Shown: positions 1,905 through 29,149 of the stretch, piece by piece
Numbering within the stretch: the stretch's first letter is position 1
Layout of the letters: each line of letters opens with the position of its first letter
NCBI GenBank assembly: GCA_947588645.1
Contig: CANPYO010000014.1
Location: 1 to 35,640, forward strand
Length of the DNA: 35,640 nucleotides
From: an uncultured Akkermansia sp.
GTDB lineage: Bacteria > Verrucomicrobiota > Verrucomicrobiia > Verrucomicrobiales > Akkermansiaceae
Reading direction: 5' to 3'
Notes under the pieces: model-generated
What the model saw: the letters and a program-made list of their open reading frames with translations, nothing else
What the model was told of the DNA's origin: nothing
The model's database searches: none
Program-made: the position numbers and the translations under genes

Positions 1905-3584
1905 ATGAGTAACAAAGAAAAGTTAAATCAGCGCTTCATGATGCTTGAAAAAAAGAAATTGGGTAAAGCTCTCTTTGAGGAAGTCGTAGCTCCCAAAACA
2001 TCCCTGGAAAAAGTACGATCGCTCATCGATGCCGGCGCGGATGTGAATGTAGCGGATGTAGAGGCGCAGATTGAGAACAGCACATTCACCTCGACACTTC
2101 GGGCAGCGGTGGGTCTTAAAAAAGTAGAGGTTGTCAAGCTCCTGCTGAAGGCGAGGGCGGATGTCAATGCTTCGAAGAATGGTGGACTTGCAGCCCTTTC
2201 GTCGGCCGCAATAAGGGGATACGCGGAGATTGTCAGGCTCCTGTTGGAGGCAGGGGCAAAAGTCAATGCTGTGGAAAAGGATGGAAATTCTGCGCTTACG
2301 TGGGCGGCGTGTTATGGACACGTGGAGATAGTCAAGCTCCTGCTGGATGCAAGGGCGGATGTCAATACTGGGAACAAGTACGGAAGTACTGCGCTTACGT
2401 GGGCGGCGGAAAAGGGATACGTGGAGATTGTCAAGCTCCTGTTGAAAGCAAGGGCAAAAGTCAATGCCGTGACTAAGGATGGGCGGACAGCACTTATGTT
2501 TGCGGCGTGGAAGGGGCACGTGGAGACTGTCAAGCTCCTGCTGAATGCAAGGGCAAAAGTCAATGCCAAGAACAAAGATGGAGAAACTGCGCTTACGTTC
2601 ACGGCGCCCAATGGGCACGTGGAGATTGTCAGGCTCCTGCTGGATGCAGGAGCAAAAGTCAATGCAACGAGCAAAGATGGATGGACAGCGCTTATGCTTG
2701 CGGCTCGTGATGGACACGCGGAGATTGTCAAGCTCCTGTTGGAAGCCAGGGCGAACATCAACGCCAAGATGAAGGATGGATGGACTGCGCTTATGTTAGC
2801 AGCGTGGAATGGACATGCGGAAATTGTCAAGCTCCTGCAAGGGTCAGATGTCAATACCAAGAACAAAGATGGAAATACTGCGCTTACACTTGCAGTAGAT
2901 AAGGGCTACGTGGAGATCGTCGAGCTACTTGTGGAGGTTTATGAGGCGAATGTTAACGCCAGAGACAAAGATGGAAATCCTGCGCTTATATTAGCGATGG
3001 AGAAGGGATATGTAGGGATCGTCAAGTTACTGCTGGAAGCCGGAGCAAATGCCAATGCCAGAGACAAGGATGGAAATCCTGCGCTTATATTGGCGGTGGA
3101 GAAGGGATATGTAGAGAGCATTAAGTTAATGCTGAAAGCCGGAGCAAATGCCAATGCCAAAGCCAAGAATGGAGATCCTGCGCTTATGTTAACCGTGTAT
3201 GCTATAGGGTTTGAGGGGATTACTAAAGGGAAAGGGGTTGAGATTATCAAGTTACTGCTGGAAGCCGGGGCAAATGTCGACGCCAGAGACAAGGATGGAT
3301 GGACTGCGCTTATGGTTGCGGCTCGTGATGGACATGCGGAGATTGTCAGGCTCCTGTTGGAAGCCGGGGCGAATGTCAATGCAGCGACCAAGTATGGAGA
3401 TACTGTGCTGGGGCTTGTTTCTTTTGACGGCAACATCATACTCGATTCTCACAACAAGCAAATCTTATCCACCCTCATCGGCGCTGGCGCTAGGATGAAG
3501 GCCTCAATGATTAAAAGGATTGTAGGGTGGGTTCGACTCAAGCTTGAGCTGCTGGTTCAAGACTCACAGGATCACCCGTATTAA
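1905..3584 (+). CDS. Long ankyrin-repeat protein (about 14 repeats)
   Basis: The protein has 559 residues. After a charged N-terminal cap (1-60), about 14 ankyrin repeats of roughly 33 residues run to about residue 510, each with the pattern TALxxAAxxGHxEIVKLLLxAxAxVNAxxKDG. One repeat near residue 310 is shortened (LLQGSDVN), and another near 430 carries a ~9-residue insertion (YAIGFEGITKGKG). The C-terminal ~50 residues are a divergent capping helix region. There is no signal peptide or transmembrane segment, so a cytoplasmic location or release by an unknown route is possible. The regular length and consensus-like repeats predict a soluble binding solenoid. The ligand cannot be read from the sequence. 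No Shine-Dalgarno sequence is obvious before the ATG. The gene follows the membrane-anchored ankyrin gene by 48 bases. Confidence 0.88.
   Translation: MSNKEKLNQRFMMLEKKKLGKALFEEVVAPKTSLEKVRSLIDAGADVNVADVEAQIENSTFTSTLRAAVGLKKVEVVKLLLKARADVNASKNGGLAALSSAAIRGYAEIVRLLLEAGAKVNAVEKDGNSALTWAACYGHVEIVKLLLDARADVNTGNKYGSTALTWAAEKGYVEIVKLLLKARAKVNAVTKDGRTALMFAAWKGHVETVKLLLNARAKVNAKNKDGETALTFTAPNGHVEIVRLLLDAGAKVNATSKDGWTALMLAARDGHAEIVKLLLEARANINAKMKDGWTALMLAAWNGHAEIVKLLQGSDVNTKNKDGNTALTLAVDKGYVEIVELLVEVYEANVNARDKDGNPALILAMEKGYVGIVKLLLEAGANANARDKDGNPALILAVEKGYVESIKLMLKAGANANAKAKNGDPALMLTVYAIGFEGITKGKGVEIIKLLLEAGANVDARDKDGWTALMVAARDGHAEIVRLLLEAGANVNAATKYGDTVLGLVSFDGNIILDSHNKQILSTLIGAGARMKASMIKRIVGWVRLKLELLVQDSQDHPY
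2205..3420 (+). repeat. Tandem ~99-bp coding repeats of the ankyrin gene
   Basis: The DNA repeats with a ~99-base period, and some units are nearly identical at nucleotide level. Examples are the GATGGATGGACTGCGCTTATG segments near 2775 and 3295, and the GATGGAAATCCTGCGCTTATA segments near 2970 and 3070. Such arrays can gain or lose units by recombination without shifting the reading frame. Confidence 0.8.
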
Positions 3585-4431: not shown

Positions 4432-4460
4432 TTGACCTGAAAAACGAAAAGAAATAGGAT
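4432..4460 (+). promoter_or_regulatory. Candidate sigma-70 promoter of leuA-pth
   Basis: TTGACC (4432-4437), a 17-base spacer and TAGGAT (4455-4460) lie just before the ATG at 4470. Only 9 bases separate the -10 box from the start, so the mRNA would have almost no leader. AGGA inside the same box could instead be the ribosome binding site, with the promoter elsewhere. Confidence 0.45.
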
Positions 4461-6026: not shown

Positions 6027-6631
6027 TGGATTCCGTGCGCATCATCGCCGGCCTAGGTAACCCGGGCGTTTCCTACATTGGCACGCGCCACAACGTGGGT
6101 TTCGCCGTGCTGGATGCCTTTGCGGAACTCTGCGGGGCGATTTGGAAACCGGATTCCGCGCACAAGGGGCTTGTGGCGCGGGGTCCGGGCGTGCTGTTGG
6201 TGAAGCCGCAGACCTTCATGAACGACTCCGGCGTATGTGTGGGTGCTCTGATGCGCTATTTCAAGTTTACTCCGGATCAGGTGCTGGTCGTGTACGATGA
6301 TATTGCTCTTCCCGTGGGCTCCTTGCGTCTGCGCGAAGGAGGCAGTGCCGGCGGACATAATGGCATGAAATCGCTCATTGCTCACTTAGGTACGGAGTCC
6401 TTCCCGCGCCTGCGTGTTGGCATAGGCTCGCACGGACGCCAAACGCTCGTTTCCCACGTGCTCGGCGGCTTTGCACCGGAGGAGAAAGAAGTCATGCAAG
6501 CAGCCATCTCTCGCGCTGCTGAAGCGTTGCAATGCCTGTTGCAAGCAGGATTTTCCACCGCCGCCAATCGCTACAACACACCGCGGCAGCCGCATATTCC
6601 CCAAGCAGATCCCCCGGGGCAGCCGCATTAG
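6026..6631 (+). CDS. pth: Peptidyl-tRNA hydrolase
   Basis: The protein has 201 residues. It cleaves peptidyl-tRNA released from stalled ribosomes and recycles tRNA. Family features are GLGNPG (9-14, with Asn12), the catalytic His22 in TRHNVGF, KPQTFMNDSG, the catalytic Asp in VVYDDIALP and the GGSAGGHNGMKS loop. The start was set at the ATG overlapping the leuA stop; a TTG nine bases upstream is less likely. The last ~15 residues (Pro/His/Gln-rich, ending GQPH) are beyond the usual family end. They are encoded by the left edge of an interspersed repeat whose 11-bp hairpin contains the stop codon. Confidence 0.93.
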   Translation: MDSVRIIAGLGNPGVSYIGTRHNVGFAVLDAFAELCGAIWKPDSAHKGLVARGPGVLLVKPQTFMNDSGVCVGALMRYFKFTPDQVLVVYDDIALPVGSLRLREGGSAGGHNGMKSLIAHLGTESFPRLRVGIGSHGRQTLVSHVLGGFAPEEKEVMQAAISRAAEALQCLLQAGFSTAANRYNTPRQPHIPQADPPGQPH

Positions 6632-6823
6632 AAAATGCGGCTGCCATTTACGATTTACGATGTGGGAAGTTTGGCGGCTACGCCGCAAATTTGGCGAACG
6701 AAAGGGAAACTTCAGAGCCGTCGTTATAATGACCTCCATTGTCACAAATTTTAATACGTATAGACAGTGACATCAGTCAACAAAATCATTTCCTTCGTTG
6801 ATTAACTCCTCTCAAATGCGTTT
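6618..6823 (+). repeat. Interspersed repeat family 1, copy A
   Basis: It begins with a perfect 11-bp hairpin (GGCAGCCGCAT, loop TAGAAA, ATGCGGCTGCC; 6618-6645). The hairpin is followed by a TTTACGATTTACGATG motif and ends in CAAATGCGTTT. The whole ~205 bases align by eye with 8737-8945. Shared blocks include the TTAGAAAATGCGG start, AATACGTATAGACAGTG against GATACGTATAAACGATG, and TGATTAACTcCTCTCAAATGCGTTT against TGATTAACTtCTCCCAAATGCGTTT. It overlaps the 3' end of pth. No protein is predicted within it. Confidence 0.75.
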
Positions 6824-6849
6824 ACTCTGGCAGATCCGCTAACAGAGAA

Positions 6850-8622: not shown

Positions 8623-8736
8623 GGTTAAAAGCTTAGCCAATATGCAATCTTCATACAATAAATGAATTGCGAGCGAAGATTTCATAAGCTGCCTTATACA
8701 GCAATGCCCCAGATATGCCAAGGAACAACACAGGTC

Positions 8737-8945
8737 AACCGCATTAGAAAATGCGGTTACAACTTACGATTTATTGATGACGTGCGTATTGCACAGATTT
8801 TTTTCGGATCATCAACGCATGTGGAGGCTTCTTTAGAGCCATCATCATGATGACCGTTTGCCATCATGATTTTTGATACGTATAAACGATGATACCAATC
8901 CGTAAGAGCCTTTTCCCTGCTGATTAACTTCTCCCAAATGCGTTT
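8737..8945 (+). repeat. Interspersed repeat family 1, copy B
   Basis: It opens with the 8-bp hairpin AACCGCAT / ATGCGGTT around the same TAGAAA loop as copy A. The body is diverged from copy A but collinear to the CAAATGCGTTT end. Copies A and B are in direct orientation and bracket the aminotransferase-Rrf2 pair. No ORF in it is believable. Confidence 0.75.
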
Positions 8946-8995
8946 GCACTGAAGGAACACGTAGAAGAAGATCTGCCGAATGTCCTTGAGTGCCG

Positions 8996-9669: not shown

Positions 9670-9698
9670 TTTTTATCACATTACCAGCCCGCTGGCAA
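9670..9698 (-). promoter_or_regulatory. Candidate promoter of the barrel gene
   Basis: On the minus strand TTGCCA (9693-9698), a 17-base spacer and TAAAAA (9670-9675) end 9 bases before the ATG at 9660. The transcript would have at most a few leader bases. GGGTTG between them is a poor ribosome binding site. Confidence 0.5.
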
Positions 9699-10091
9699 GC
9701 ACGTTTTTTGATTCATAAAAAATTCGCACGCTGAAGGCGCAAGCTGGCGAACCAAAGGTTGAGCGAAATTTGAAAGCTCTGCGCGAATGCGGTCACAAAA
9801 CGATAATGGCACTCGTAGGTACCTATTGGCGATTTACAAATTACGCCCTGGAAATTTCGTGTTCCGAGATACGTGCGGTCTACCGAATGGAGGGTCTTCT
9901 CCACTTTTCCGCTCCATCCAAATGCGCTTGCCCCGGAATCACCTTGTTTTCTCCGATCACCACCTGGTGCGCCCACGCACGTCATGTCCGGATCGAACCT
10001 TGGCAATACCCGGTATAAGACTGACCCAACAAGAAGTAACGCCTCTTTGTGTAGCGAGAATGAGCAGAGGGGCTCATGCCCTGACGTATCT
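9699..10091. other. Intergenic stretch with repeat fragments
   Basis: About 390 bases without a believable gene; short open frames on both strands show no protein character. It contains a CGATTTACAAATTACG motif like the other repeats. A block at 9889-9930 (CTTCTCCACTTTTCCGCTCC, then ATCCAAATGCGCTTG) matches 28459-28500 before grpE, and its GCGCTTGCCCCGGA end recurs at 34610-34623. Confidence 0.5.
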
Positions 10092-13183: not shown

Positions 13184-13211
13184 TTGAAAAAGGGAAATAT
13201 TCTGATAGGAT
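13184..13211 (+). promoter_or_regulatory. Candidate promoter of the metF operon
   Basis: TTGAAA (13184-13189), a 16-base spacer and TAGGAT (13206-13211) end 7 bases before the ATG at 13219. The predicted start site falls on or beside the ATG. AGGA within the -10 box, or GAGGG just before the ATG, could instead act as ribosome binding site if transcription starts further upstream. Confidence 0.45.
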
Positions 13212-18000: not shown

Positions 18001-20121
18001 TTAGAAAAGAGGCAATTCGGGCTGTTCTTCGGCGCGGGCCTTGGCGATGAGTTCTTCATCACAAATCGGGCAGTAGTCATGGCGCCCCTTGAGGTAGCCG
18101 TGCTTGTCGCACACGGAGAAAAGCGGCGTAACCGTAATATAAGGCATCTTGAAATTCGTAAGCACCTTGCGCACGATGTCACGGCAAGCCTCCGGAGAGG
18201 AAATAGCCTCGTTCATGTACATGTGGAATACCGTACCGCCGGTGTAGCAGCACTGGAGCTTGTCCTGCATGTGAAGAGCCTTGAAGAGATCACTTGTGTA
18301 ATTGGCTGGAAGCTGAGAACTGTTGGTGTAGTAACGGTGCCCCGGCGTGCCTGCCTGGATGATGTCCGGGAAGCGCTTGGCATCCTCACGAGCAAAACGG
18401 TGAGTAGTTCCTTCTGCCGGAGTAGCCTCCAAATTGTAGAGATTGCCGGTTTCTTCCTGATAGCTACGAATGCGCTCACGCATGAAATGCAGAACCTCCT
18501 CCGCAAAGGCAATTCCATCGGGAGTGGCGGTGTTCATGGTATCACCGGAAAAATTACGCAACATCTCATTGATGCCATTCAGTCCGATAGTCGAGAAGTG
18601 ATTGCGCAGGTGAGGCAGATAACGCTTCGTGTAGGGGTACAGACCGCGGTCATAGAGCGTATTGATAAACACGCGCTTCTTCTCCAGTGTACTCTTGGCC
18701 AGATCCATCAGCTCTGCCAGTTTACTGTAGAGCAAATTCCTATTGCCCTTGTACAGGTAACCGAGACGAGCCATATTGATGGTGACCACACCGATGGAGC
18801 CTGTCATTTCCGCTGAACCAAACAAGCCGCCGCCGCGCTTGAGCAATTCGCGCAGGTCCAGTTGCAAACGGCAGCACATGGAACGCACCGCATCCGGTTT
18901 GTACGCTTCTTCATCGATGACTTTGTTGCCATTCTCGTCGATCTTGTACTGAGAACCAACAAAGTTTTGGAAGTAGGAAGAGCCTATCTTAGCCGCATTG
19001 GCAAAGAGCAGAGGCACATTTTCGCCATCCCAGTCAAAATCCTCTGTGATATTCACGGTAGGGATGGGGAAGGTGAAGGGTTGCCCAGTGCTATCTCCCT
19101 CGGTAAGTACCTCGTAGAAAGCTTTTTGGATGACTGTCATCTCCGGCTGGAAATGCTTGTAGGTCATGCCTGTGAGTGACTCCGCCCCGCGTTCTTTGGC
19201 GAGAGCCGCGAGCTTTTCATCGTGCAGATTTTCGAAGATATGCGCGCCTCCGGAGAAAGGAGGCTGCTCGCGCAAGTCGCGCGGCACCGTCCAGTCAATG
19301 GTTACATTAGTGAATGGGCTTTGTCCCCAGCGGGACGGTACATTCAGGTTGTACACAAAGCTGCGAAGCGCTTTCTTCACTTCCCCATAAGGGAGCTGGT
19401 CGCGGAAGAGGTAGGGAGAAAGGTACGTATCAAAAGAACTGAAAGCTTGCGCTCCCGCCCACTCACTTTGCAAAATGCCCAAGAAATTGGCCATCTGTCC
19501 CAGAGCCTCACGGAAATGTTTGGGAGGACGGCTATTCACGCGACTACGCACGCCGTTAAATCCCTCGTTGAGTAAGTTGCGCAAGCTCCATCCGGCGCAG
19601 TAGCCGGTGAGGCAATCCAAGTCGTGAATGTGGTAATCGCCGTTGCGATGAGCAGCGCCCTCATCCGGAGAGTAGACCTGGTCAAGCCAGTAGTTGGCAA
19701 TCACCTTGCCGGCGGTGTTGTTCACGAGCCCGGCGTTGGAATAAGTCGTGTTGGAATTGGCCTTGATACGCCAGTCAATATTGCCGATGTACTCCTCGAT
19801 GGCCTGCTTGCAATCTACCCACGTGTTGCCCTGATACATGCCGGCAATCTGCTCGCGCTGCAGCTTGTGCAAAAAGCGGTACTTAATGAAGTTACGAGCG
19901 GTCTCAAACGCCCCGGCCTTCATCAGCTCACTCTCGATGAGATCCTGCACCTTTTCCACCGGCAGGTACTCCTCACCCTTGATGGCATCCAGCACACTTG
20001 TGTAAACCAGCGGATTATACTCCTCTTGGGATGCGTGAAAAGCTTTCTCGATGGCCTGCTGAATCTTGTAGGCCTCAAAACGCTCGCGCTTCCCATTGCG
20101 TTTGATGATTTGCTGCGGCAT
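18001..20121 (-). CDS. nrdD: Anaerobic ribonucleoside-triphosphate reductase, large part
   Basis: The protein has 706 residues. It reduces ribonucleotides to deoxyribonucleotides without oxygen. An ATP-cone covers about 1-95 (IIKRNGKRERFEAYKIQQAI). The barrel core includes YHIHDLDCLTGYCAGWSL, NVPSRWGQSPFTNVTIDWTV and the substrate-pocket stretch LQCCYTGGTVFHMYMNEA. The C-terminus has Cys-x-x-His (CDKHGY) and CPIC, parts of the zinc site, then ends ELPLF without the RVxGY glycyl-radical motif, which is on the next gene. Length and core are otherwise complete, so this is a split, not a decayed, enzyme. Upstream lie a promoter and two NrdR-type boxes. Confidence 0.93.
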   Translation of the reverse strand: MPQQIIKRNGKRERFEAYKIQQAIEKAFHASQEEYNPLVYTSVLDAIKGEEYLPVEKVQDLIESELMKAGAFETARNFIKYRFLHKLQREQIAGMYQGNTWVDCKQAIEEYIGNIDWRIKANSNTTYSNAGLVNNTAGKVIANYWLDQVYSPDEGAAHRNGDYHIHDLDCLTGYCAGWSLRNLLNEGFNGVRSRVNSRPPKHFREALGQMANFLGILQSEWAGAQAFSSFDTYLSPYLFRDQLPYGEVKKALRSFVYNLNVPSRWGQSPFTNVTIDWTVPRDLREQPPFSGGAHIFENLHDEKLAALAKERGAESLTGMTYKHFQPEMTVIQKAFYEVLTEGDSTGQPFTFPIPTVNITEDFDWDGENVPLLFANAAKIGSSYFQNFVGSQYKIDENGNKVIDEEAYKPDAVRSMCCRLQLDLRELLKRGGGLFGSAEMTGSIGVVTINMARLGYLYKGNRNLLYSKLAELMDLAKSTLEKKRVFINTLYDRGLYPYTKRYLPHLRNHFSTIGLNGINEMLRNFSGDTMNTATPDGIAFAEEVLHFMRERIRSYQEETGNLYNLEATPAEGTTHRFAREDAKRFPDIIQAGTPGHRYYTNSSQLPANYTSDLFKALHMQDKLQCCYTGGTVFHMYMNEAISSPEACRDIVRKVLTNFKMPYITVTPLFSVCDKHGYLKGRHDYCPICDEELIAKARAEEQPELPLF

Positions 20122-20445: not shown

Positions 20446-20493
20446 ACGCAAAATATATGATCGTTTTTTCAAATTTTACGCAATATATTGTGT
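20446..20493. promoter_or_regulatory. Tandem NrdR-type boxes
   Basis: ACGCAATATATTGTGT (20478-20493) fits the NrdR box (acaCwAtATaTwGtgt) at 15 of 16 places. ACGCAAAATATATGAT (20446-20461) is a weaker second copy. They are 32 bases centre to centre, the helical phasing reported for NrdR pairs. NrdR represses ribonucleotide reductase genes when dATP is high, so control of the nrdD operon is strongly suggested. Confidence 0.75.
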
Positions 20494-22769: not shown

Positions 22770-24290
22770 CTAATAACTGCGCGCCCAGAGAACGCGGCGA
22801 GACGTTGGGCGACCTGTGAGAATGCAAGGCGCCTCAGGACCCTGCCCCAGCTCGCCCTGCGGGATGCAGCGGATAGAAACACGCAGACTCTTACCGAGCT
22901 CTTCTTCCTGCTCCGGGGAGCCATCCCACGGACAGAGCAGCCAATCAGCATCGCCCTCGCTCCCGAAGTTTTTCTTGAAATCCTCTAAACAACTGCAGGG
23001 GCGAATATGAGCATCACGAAAGGCCTGCTGCCGAGCGAGCAAGTTGCCTTGTATGTCCTCCAACAGAGCGGTAATGCCCGTCACAAGATCTTTCTCAGTC
23101 AGAAAATCTTTTTCGCCGGTGGGGCGGTCGCGACGAGCAAGGCAAACAGATCCCTTCTCCAGATCTCGTGGTCCGATTTCTATACGTACCGGCACGCCTT
23201 TCTTTATCCACTCCCATTTTTTGGTTCCACCATTCAGATCACGCTCGTCCACCTCCACGCGCAGTGGTAAGTCGTGAAACCGCTGCGCGGCAAGCTTCTC
23301 GGCCAGCTCCCGGCAGTGGGTGAGGATTTGTTCGCGCGTTTCCTCCTTGGGTGTAACAGGTATGATCACGATCTGTCGTGGAGCAACGCGAGGCGGACAC
23401 ACGAGGCCGTCATCATCCGAATGGGCCATGATAAGCATGCCGATCATGCGTGTGGAAACGCCCCAAGAGGTCGTCCATGCAAACTGCCGTTCATTATGAC
23501 GACCGGCAAAGGAGATGTTTTGCGCCTTGGCGAAGTTCTGTCCAAGGAAGTGAGAGGTGCCTGCCTGTATCGCCTTACGATCCTGCACCATGGCCTCCAC
23601 AGTGTAAGTGCGCACCGCACCGGGGAAACGTTCGTGTTCGGTCTTTTCTCCGGGGATGGACGGCACTGCGAGCACATCGCGCTGAAAATCCTCGTACACC
23701 TTGTGCATGGTGGCCGTCTCTCGTTCAGCTTCTTCGCGGGTTTCGTGAGCGGTGTGCCCCTCCTGCCACAGGAATTCGGCCGTGCGCAGGAAGATGCGCG
23801 GGCGCATTTCCCAACGCATCACATTGCACCATTGGTTCACCTTGAAAGGGAGGTCGCGATAAGACTCCAACCAGCGCGAGAAGGCCGCGCCGATGACTGT
23901 TTCCGAAGTGGGTCGTATCACATACTTGTCGGTGAGTTCCCCCGCAGGAATCATGCGAGTTTTTCCGGTATCGGGGTCTTTACGCGCCTCCAGACGGTGG
24001 TGAGTAACCACGGCGCACTCTGTGGCAAATCCCTCGGCGTGTTCCGCTTCTTTCTCCAAGTAGGCAACAGGTATGAGCATCGGGAAATAGGCATTGGTAT
24101 GTCCGGTGCGCTTGAATTCGGCGTCCAGCTGCTGCTGAATAAGTTCCCAGATGGCGTACCCCCATGGTTTGATGACCATGCACCCGCGCACCTCAGAGTT
24201 TTCTGCCATATCAGCCGCTTTAACGACCTGCTGGTACCACTCAGGAAAGTCCTGCGCGCGCGTGGGGGAAATTGCATGTTGTTGTGCCAT
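22770..24290 (-). CDS. proS: Prolyl-tRNA synthetase (archaeal/eukaryotic type)
   Basis: The protein has 506 residues, the length of the short type without the editing insertion. The class II core shows RPTSETVIGAAFSRW (motif 2 region), WEMRPRIFLRTAEFLWQEGHTAH, and GVSTRMIGMLIMAHSDDDGLVCPP (motif 3). The anticodon domain follows (QIVIIPVTPKEE) and a zinc-binding C-terminal domain ends in Tyr (ARSY), as typical for this type. Its mRNA is probably leaderless: the -10 box ends 6 bases before the ATG and there is no Shine-Dalgarno sequence. nadE follows in the same operon. Confidence 0.96.
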   Translation of the reverse strand: MAQQHAISPTRAQDFPEWYQQVVKAADMAENSEVRGCMVIKPWGYAIWELIQQQLDAEFKRTGHTNAYFPMLIPVAYLEKEAEHAEGFATECAVVTHHRLEARKDPDTGKTRMIPAGELTDKYVIRPTSETVIGAAFSRWLESYRDLPFKVNQWCNVMRWEMRPRIFLRTAEFLWQEGHTAHETREEAERETATMHKVYEDFQRDVLAVPSIPGEKTEHERFPGAVRTYTVEAMVQDRKAIQAGTSHFLGQNFAKAQNISFAGRHNERQFAWTTSWGVSTRMIGMLIMAHSDDDGLVCPPRVAPRQIVIIPVTPKEETREQILTHCRELAEKLAAQRFHDLPLRVEVDERDLNGGTKKWEWIKKGVPVRIEIGPRDLEKGSVCLARRDRPTGEKDFLTEKDLVTGITALLEDIQGNLLARQQAFRDAHIRPCSCLEDFKKNFGSEGDADWLLCPWDGSPEQEEELGKSLRVSIRCIPQGELGQGPEAPCILTGRPTSRRVLWARSY

Positions 24291-24296
24291 GAGGCG

Positions 24297-24324
24297 ATAT
24301 TAGTGACTAGCGTAAAAAAGTCAA
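24297..24324 (-). promoter_or_regulatory. Promoter of proS-nadE abutting the start codon
   Basis: On the minus strand TTGACT (24319-24324), a 16-base spacer and TAATAT (24297-24302) are followed by six bases (CGCCTC) and the ATG. The six bases cannot pair with the 16S anti-Shine-Dalgarno. Transcription should begin at or next to the A of ATG. Confidence 0.65.
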
Positions 24325-28458: not shown

Positions 28459-28500
28459 TGGAGAGATTTTCTGCTTTTCCACTCCATCCAAATGAGGTTG
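28459..28500 (+). repeat. Short repeat shared with 9889-9930
   Basis: TTTTCCACTCCATCCAAATG and the bases before it match the intergenic stretch near 9889-9930 with few changes. It ends 24 bases before the grpE -35 box. Confidence 0.55.
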
Positions 28501-28523
28501 ACCTGCTATGTCACAGCCGATCA

Positions 28524-28552
28524 TTGACGCGGGTGTACTACACCCCTATAAT
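28524..28552 (+). promoter_or_regulatory. Promoter of the grpE-dnaJ operon with palindromic operator
   Basis: TTGACG (28524-28529), a 17-base spacer and TATAAT (28547-28552) end 6 bases before the ATG at 28559. The spacer contains GGGTGTACTACACCC (28531-28545), a perfect palindrome with 7-base arms. It is not the HrcA CIRCE sequence. A repressor bound here would block RNA polymerase directly. Confidence 0.75.
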
Positions 28553-28558
28553 GGGGGC

Positions 28559-29149
28559 ATGCAAGACGACAATTTCCAAGAGGAACAGAAGGACGCGGCT
28601 GAGCCTCAGGCTCAAGATACTTGTGGATGCGATATCCCTCCTGCGCCCGAGAAGGAATATGCGGAGGCCGTGGACGAATCGGATCCGGAGCAAGCCACTG
28701 CAGCTACGGATGAGCTTGCCAAATGGCGCGAACTGGCGTTGCGCACGGCTGCCGAATATGACAATTACCGCAAGCGCTGCGTGAAGGAACGCGACGAGTT
28801 CACCCGCTATGCCACGCGAGGTCTGCTGGAAGAGCTTTTGCCGGTACTGGACAACTTTGAGATGGGCATGCAGATGGCCGAAAAGGAGAAGGGCTCTATG
28901 ATATACATCGGCATGGAGATGGTGAAGAAGCAGCTGCAGGACTTCCTGAATGCACAGGGGGTGGAGCCCATCCCCGCACAGCCCGGCATTCTCTTTGACC
29001 ACAATCTGCACGAGGCTATTCAGAGCGAGCCCTCCGACCAGGCGGAAGGGACGGTACTGCGCATTTTGCGCCCGGGCTACATGCTGCGCGGCAAACTGCT
29101 ACGCCCCGTGAATGTGGTGACGGCGGCGGCTCCCGCTCCCCAAAACTGA
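28559..29149 (+). CDS. grpE: Nucleotide exchange factor of DnaK
   Basis: The protein has 196 residues. It releases ADP from DnaK in the chaperone cycle. An acidic, disordered N-terminus (1-50) precedes the long coiled coil (51-100, ELALRTAAEYDNYRKRCVKE) and the beta domain (GILFDHNLHEAIQSEPSDQ, VLRILRPGYMLRGKLLRPVNV). An ATG at 28508 in the same frame would place the promoter inside the gene, so the start at 28559 is chosen. dnaJ follows by 25 bases. dnaK is not in the window. Confidence 0.93.
   Translation: MQDDNFQEEQKDAAEPQAQDTCGCDIPPAPEKEYAEAVDESDPEQATAATDELAKWRELALRTAAEYDNYRKRCVKERDEFTRYATRGLLEELLPVLDNFEMGMQMAEKEKGSMIYIGMEMVKKQLQDFLNAQGVEPIPAQPGILFDHNLHEAIQSEPSDQAEGTVLRILRPGYMLRGKLLRPVNVVTAAAPAPQN

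Follow-up and report, generated by a model that had tools for sequence, protein, structure and literature searches.

Sigma-70-type promoters abutting start codons suggest leaderless or near-leaderless mRNAs in an uncultured Akkermansia genome

INTRODUCTION

Leaderless transcription has been measured in one species of the genus Akkermansia. In a Cappable-seq study of the mouse caecum published in 2016, 10% of the A. muciniphila start sites were located at an annotated gene start; the value for Escherichia coli was 0.4% (PMC4782308). An analysis of 953 bacterial genomes (Zheng et al. 2011) did not include Verrucomicrobia among the groups with leaderless genes (PMC3160421). In the TA-led genes of Actinobacteria and Deinococcus-Thermus, the -10 box lies some 12 bases ahead of the start codon and a Shine-Dalgarno (SD) sequence is lacking (PMC3160421). 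A study of SD-scarce genomes with an intact anti-SD names Akkermansia as SD-scarce (PMC10783764). A literature search found no dRNA-seq paper on a verrucomicrobial species.

Here we describe promoters that directly precede start codons in a 35,640-nucleotide stretch of DNA (the window) from an uncultured Akkermansia sp., which forms contig 14 of a draft genome (2.49 Mb, 158 contigs). The organism shares its genus with A. muciniphila, and -35 and -10 boxes are likewise found upstream, but the leaderless start sites were measured in that species (PMC4782308) and are predicted from sequence in ours. The -10 position and the lack of an SD sequence resemble those of TA-led genes (PMC3160421), to which this genome adds a clear TTGACA -35 box and often a TG extension. 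The absence of an SD signal agrees with the description of SD-scarce genomes, a description that, unlike our analysis, leaves promoter position untreated (PMC10783764).

RESULTS

The proS promoter and start codon

On the basis of proS, the genome groups with uncultured Akkermansia from the guts of rabbits and ruminants (84 to 91% identity). By the same measure, A. muciniphila and A. glycaniphila are 79 to 80% identical, and the nearest whole genomes are labelled as the same genus. The G+C content is 45.6% in the first 3 kb of the window and about 54% elsewhere; the lower-G+C part contains an ankyrin-repeat protein gene (559 aa; 1905-3584) with many 99-base repeats.

The initial annotation had proposed that a two-box promoter ends six bases before the proS ATG with no SD sequence between them. 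This geometry was confirmed to the base on the minus strand (Table 1). The missing SD sequence is also true of proS and says little, since the whole genome shows no SD signal. At 496 starts of the window genome, GGAG, GAGG, and AGGA occurred at background levels; thus, the absence of SD sequences is a property of the whole genome and not of these genes, and its absence at proS, grpE, leuA, and gene 13219 does not distinguish them. No 16S gene, and hence no anti-SD, was found in the draft assembly.

The ATG at 24290 is the only plausible proS start because an in-frame TAA, 10 to 12 bases 5' of it, makes up the 5' half of the -10 box and because no further in-frame Met occurs before residue 28, which lies within the conserved protein. 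Among relatives, the N-terminus (MAQQ) is kept through synonymous changes.

Table 1. Promoter elements and genes of the window
Feature	Sequence	Position	Strand	Remarks
proS -35 box	TTGACT	24324-24319	minus	TTGAC kept in 33/35 relatives; 16-base spacer
proS -10 box	TAATAT	24302-24297	minus	6 bases from its end to ATG
proS intervening bases	CGCCTC	24296-24291	minus	separate -10 box from ATG
proS start codon	ATG	24290-24288	minus	predicted transcription start at its A
proS		22770..24290	minus	prolyl-tRNA synthetase (TIGR00408)
grpE -35 box	TTGACG	28524..28529	plus	17-base spacer
grpE -10 box	TATAAT	28547..28552	plus	6 bases from its end to ATG 28559
grpE, corrected start	ATG	28559..29149 (gene)	plus	PF01025; predicted start at 28559
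leuA -35 box	TTGACC	4432..4437	plus	17-base spacer
leuA -10 box	TAGGAT	4455..4460	plus	9 bases from its end to ATG 4470
13219 -35 box	TTGAAA	13184..13189	plus	16-base spacer
13219 -10 box	TAGGAT	13206..13211	plus	7 bases from its end to ATG
Barrel gene -35 box	TTGCCA	9693..9698	minus	17-base spacer; sequence only
Barrel gene -10-like box	TAAAAA, TG before	9670..9675	minus	9 bases to ATG 9660; weakest case

A comparison of 74 sequences in all provided a set of 35 distinct proS upstream regions, the window included, whose proteins are 81 to 91% identical. A two-box promoter lies 6 to 10 bases from the proS ATG in 33 of the 35, while the remaining upstream sequence has diverged; shuffling gave an expectation of 2.3 over all 74 sequences. 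The distance between box and ATG varies from 6 to 10 bases, with a single case of 20 bases (L221), which is one of the two exceptions and retains the promoter. In the other exception (L228), a proS promoter of this type is absent. The architecture was also absent at proS from the A. muciniphila and A. glycaniphila genomes that were read. In three loci of more distant relatives (Verrucomicrobiaceae and Prosthecobacter; L032, L034, and L037), proS is preceded by TTGACC and, about 16 bases downstream and near the ATG, TATCCT, with 9 bases between TATCCT and the ATG in L037. These loci suggest that short leaders at proS predate the genus.

Other genes of the window

The same geometry had been claimed for four further genes. 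It was found as described at leuA and gene 13219, and also at grpE, although its ATG is located 17 codons inside the longest open reading frame (from 28508). We place the start of grpE at 28559 and not at 28508, because the GrpE homologue of the near relative G026 aligns exactly from the Met encoded at 28559 and because a stop codon interrupts the match to the longer form in a second near relative, G030. The latter genome carries a leaderless-type promoter at the equivalent of this Met. Since the same architecture, in frame with the protein match, also occurs in G014, G023, and G039, it reaches across the genus. For the barrel gene, the two boxes and the distance are present as claimed; its -10-like box lacks the final T and was missed by the pattern scans, which makes it a weaker case.

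Footprints for grpE, leuA, and gene 13219 were obtained by comparing the coordinates of pattern matches with those of protein matches. In G026, a promoter lies exactly at the homologous Met for these three genes and proS, and in G030, for grpE, gene 13219, and proS (not leuA).

Several intergenic gaps of the window contain dispersed repeats (6617-6657 and 8733-8773; 6742-6829 and 8864-8951; 9897-9933 and 28467-28503), some of which are hairpin-like (GCCGCATTAGAAAATGCGGC). One repeat copy stops just 5' of the spurious upstream ATG of grpE. Separately, two near-palindromes, ACGCAAAATATATGAT (20446-20461) and ACGCAATATATTGTGT (20478-20493), lie 32 bases apart upstream of an anaerobic ribonucleotide reductase gene (18001-20121; PF13597, ATP cone). 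They show a possible resemblance to the tandem boxes of the repressor NrdR.

Genome-wide excess of promoters at start codons

The strict pattern TTGAC-N16-18-TANNNT-N6-9-ATG matched the window three times, exactly at proS, leuA, and grpE (shuffle mean, 0.15; 0 of 100 shuffles reached three). The whole genome contains 84 matches, compared with 20 when the ATG was moved 10 bases further away and 6 when the pattern was reversed.

We read 835 kb of the genome directly (about one third, window included), using gene calls from a simple coding-potential model that is blind to promoters and ribosome sites. Upstream of first genes, TANNNT peaked with the end of the box 6 to 10 bases before the start; at 6 bases it was found in 6.9% of first genes, compared with about 1.2% at other positions. 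The initial annotation had proposed counting -10 boxes near starts against a shuffled background, and the count revealed a genome-wide excess: 43 of 283 first genes have a two-box promoter (at least 4/6 matches in each box, at least 8/12 in total, spacer of 15 to 19) 5 to 10 bases from the start, while shuffles gave 5.1 ± 1.9. A separate scan gave 44 of 276 first genes. Operon-internal genes had such a promoter in only 7 of 213 cases. At a threshold of at least 9/12 matches, there were 37 first genes (1.4 in shuffles), one of 213 operon-internal genes, and 6 of 4,355 internal ATGs.

The distribution of gaps among the 43 candidates has a sharp near edge (0 at 5 bases, 12 at 6 bases), and 6 bases is the commonest gap. 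Such an edge is expected if promoters can move toward the ATG only as far as the transcript still contains the AUG. Of the 30 strict matches in the 835 kb, 23 coincided with a start of a called gene, either the called one or an in-frame alternative, so that counting from called starts gives too low a number; 11 were on in-frame starts that the gene caller had not picked.

Promoter consensus and gene identities

The consensus of the 43 candidates is cTTGacA, 17 bases, often TG, and TAnAAT. Nearly all contain the TTG of the -35 box, 17 bases is the commonest spacer, and the TG extension is present in 53%. The sequences thus combine a TTGACA-like -35 box, a 16- to 18-base spacer, and a TATAAT-like -10 box, as in sigma-70-type promoters. 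They also share four features of TA-led genes, i.e., TANNNT about 6 bases before the start, no SD sequence, an AUG codon, and the first position in the unit. The start codon is ATG in all 43, which hardly distinguishes them from operon-internal genes (203 of 213).

A pyrimidine at -1 was considered as initiator evidence and dropped; it is not enriched over operon-internal genes (36/43 versus 156/213; p 0.18) and therefore provides no independent evidence of an initiator. In the window genome and the verrucomicrobial relatives that were sampled, 35 to 52% of first genes have a C immediately before the start codon, and this holds for genes with and without a leaderless-type promoter.

Approximately 40 candidates were compared with NCBIfam, and the ones that received a name are single-copy housekeeping genes. 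They include serS, glyS, proS, gyrB, polA, guaA, purD, pyrC, argC, argJ, hisC, leuA, nadC, thiE, nuoB, tkt, ahcY, def, and others.

Distribution in the genus, the phylum, and control genomes

An excess of the strict pattern was detected in 59 of 59 sampled genomes of the genus. Several larger-genome members (A. muciniphila-like; ProS 78 to 80% identical) have 29 to 35 strict sites, compared with 84 in the window genome, and most other genomes of the genus have 50 to 107. Promoters of this kind are two to three times more numerous in smaller-genome Akkermansia than in A. muciniphila-like genomes. Among orthologues of the candidates in A. muciniphila and A. glycaniphila, the promoter was kept in 1 of 9 by lenient criteria and 0 of 9 by the standard ones, a sample too small to support a conclusion. 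In the phylum as a whole, the excess is modest in some families and absent from several families of the same class.

As a control, 200 kb of E. coli K-12 was passed through the same pipeline with at least 9/12 matches required; none of 87 promoters was found at 5 to 10 bases, and the SD peak was strong. Replicons of Deinococcus and Rhodococcus exhibited a TANNNT peak at 6 to 7 bases, which they have in common with the window genome, together with an SD peak; this strong SD class has no counterpart in the window genome.

DISCUSSION

The promoter-abutting-start architecture is real and conserved, as observed in the boxes, their spacing, the genome-wide excess, and the conservation among relatives. 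We consider it highly probable, judging from the sequence, that these sigma-70-type promoters produce mRNAs on housekeeping genes that are leaderless or have leaders of 1 to 4 bases. Housekeeping promoters of this type would hold the -10 box 6 to 10 bases before the ATG, and RNA polymerase would initiate 6 to 9 bases beyond the box. In the class with a gap of 6 to 7 bases, the transcript would begin at the A of the AUG; with other gaps, it would begin up to 4 bases earlier. The ribosome would then initiate on a 5'-terminal AUG without SD pairing, following the leaderless route that is known in Actinobacteria, Deinococcus, and A. muciniphila. The strictly leaderless state may be restricted to the 6- to 7-base class, with boxes at 8 to 10 bases yielding leaders of 1 to 4 bases, and any single gene may have an additional promoter further upstream. 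The earlier proposal that several mRNAs begin at or near the A of the ATG is thus supported by the geometry, the genome-wide positional excess, the controls, and the phylogenetic footprints; from these we infer the exact start sites and leaderless translation.

The strongest competing explanation is that the transcripts carry a real leader of 1 to 5 bases and are translated by the same SD-independent route as the other genes, so that no separate leaderless class exists. The spread of gaps over 6 to 10 bases, their drift at proS among relatives (from 6 to 10, once 20), and the lack of an SD signal in 496 starts are all compatible with such leaders. However, the commonest gap (6 bases; 12 of 43) puts +1 on the A of the AUG, the near edge is sharp, and 10% of the mapped A. 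muciniphila start sites fall on an annotated gene start (PMC4782308). We regard this explanation as possible but the less likely one, and a leader of a few bases differs little in practice from none. A misplacement of gene starts, with real promoters and translation from a codon further downstream that follows a leader of normal length, is conceivable given that the start calls are computational and that 11 of the 30 strict matches are on starts that the gene caller had not chosen. It is nevertheless very unlikely: residues 1 to 6 of ProS are kept by synonymous change and its next Met is residue 28, GrpE homology begins at the promoter-proximal Met, and candidate proteins such as SerS, PurD, Rnd, and the fucose mutarotase align residue 1 to model position 1. 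Finally, single TANNNT hexamers are common (about 1.2% per position upstream of starts), and -10-like hexamers might arise by chance in an AT-rich intergenic strip. We rejected this reading, the probability of which is negligible, since the two-box excess in first genes is approximately 8-fold over shuffles and the whole-genome excess is distance specific and conserved across species.

Leaderless or near-leaderless initiation, the reading that we prefer, is of a known kind and already known in Akkermansia. The initial annotation regarded it as not widely described for the phylum, which holds insofar as the survey by Zheng et al. omits Verrucomicrobia (PMC3160421); the novelty is weakened because Cappable-seq had found leaderless start sites (10%) in A. 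muciniphila (PMC4782308). What is new here is the density in the smaller-genome clade, the conservation on named genes, the counts for the whole genome and the phylum, and the revised start of grpE.

By a rough background-subtracted estimate, about 40% of the recognizable promoters within 160 bases of first genes are at the leaderless position. We tentatively raise the possibility, which we would not yet favor, that leaderless or near-leaderless initiation is the commonest class in smaller-genome Akkermansia for genes that have a strong promoter of their own. If so, the ribosome would start mostly without mRNA-rRNA pairing. In this gut-symbiont genus, the architecture is a widespread and conserved feature of core genes (i.e., tRNA synthetases, gyrB, polA, and biosynthetic enzymes), and it is denser here than in genomes like that of the one species measured so far. 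Akkermansia therefore offers a useful comparison with E. coli in studies of SD-independent translation starts. In these genomes, the promoter can serve to correct start codons, as at grpE, and expression vectors for Akkermansia may need no ribosome-binding site.
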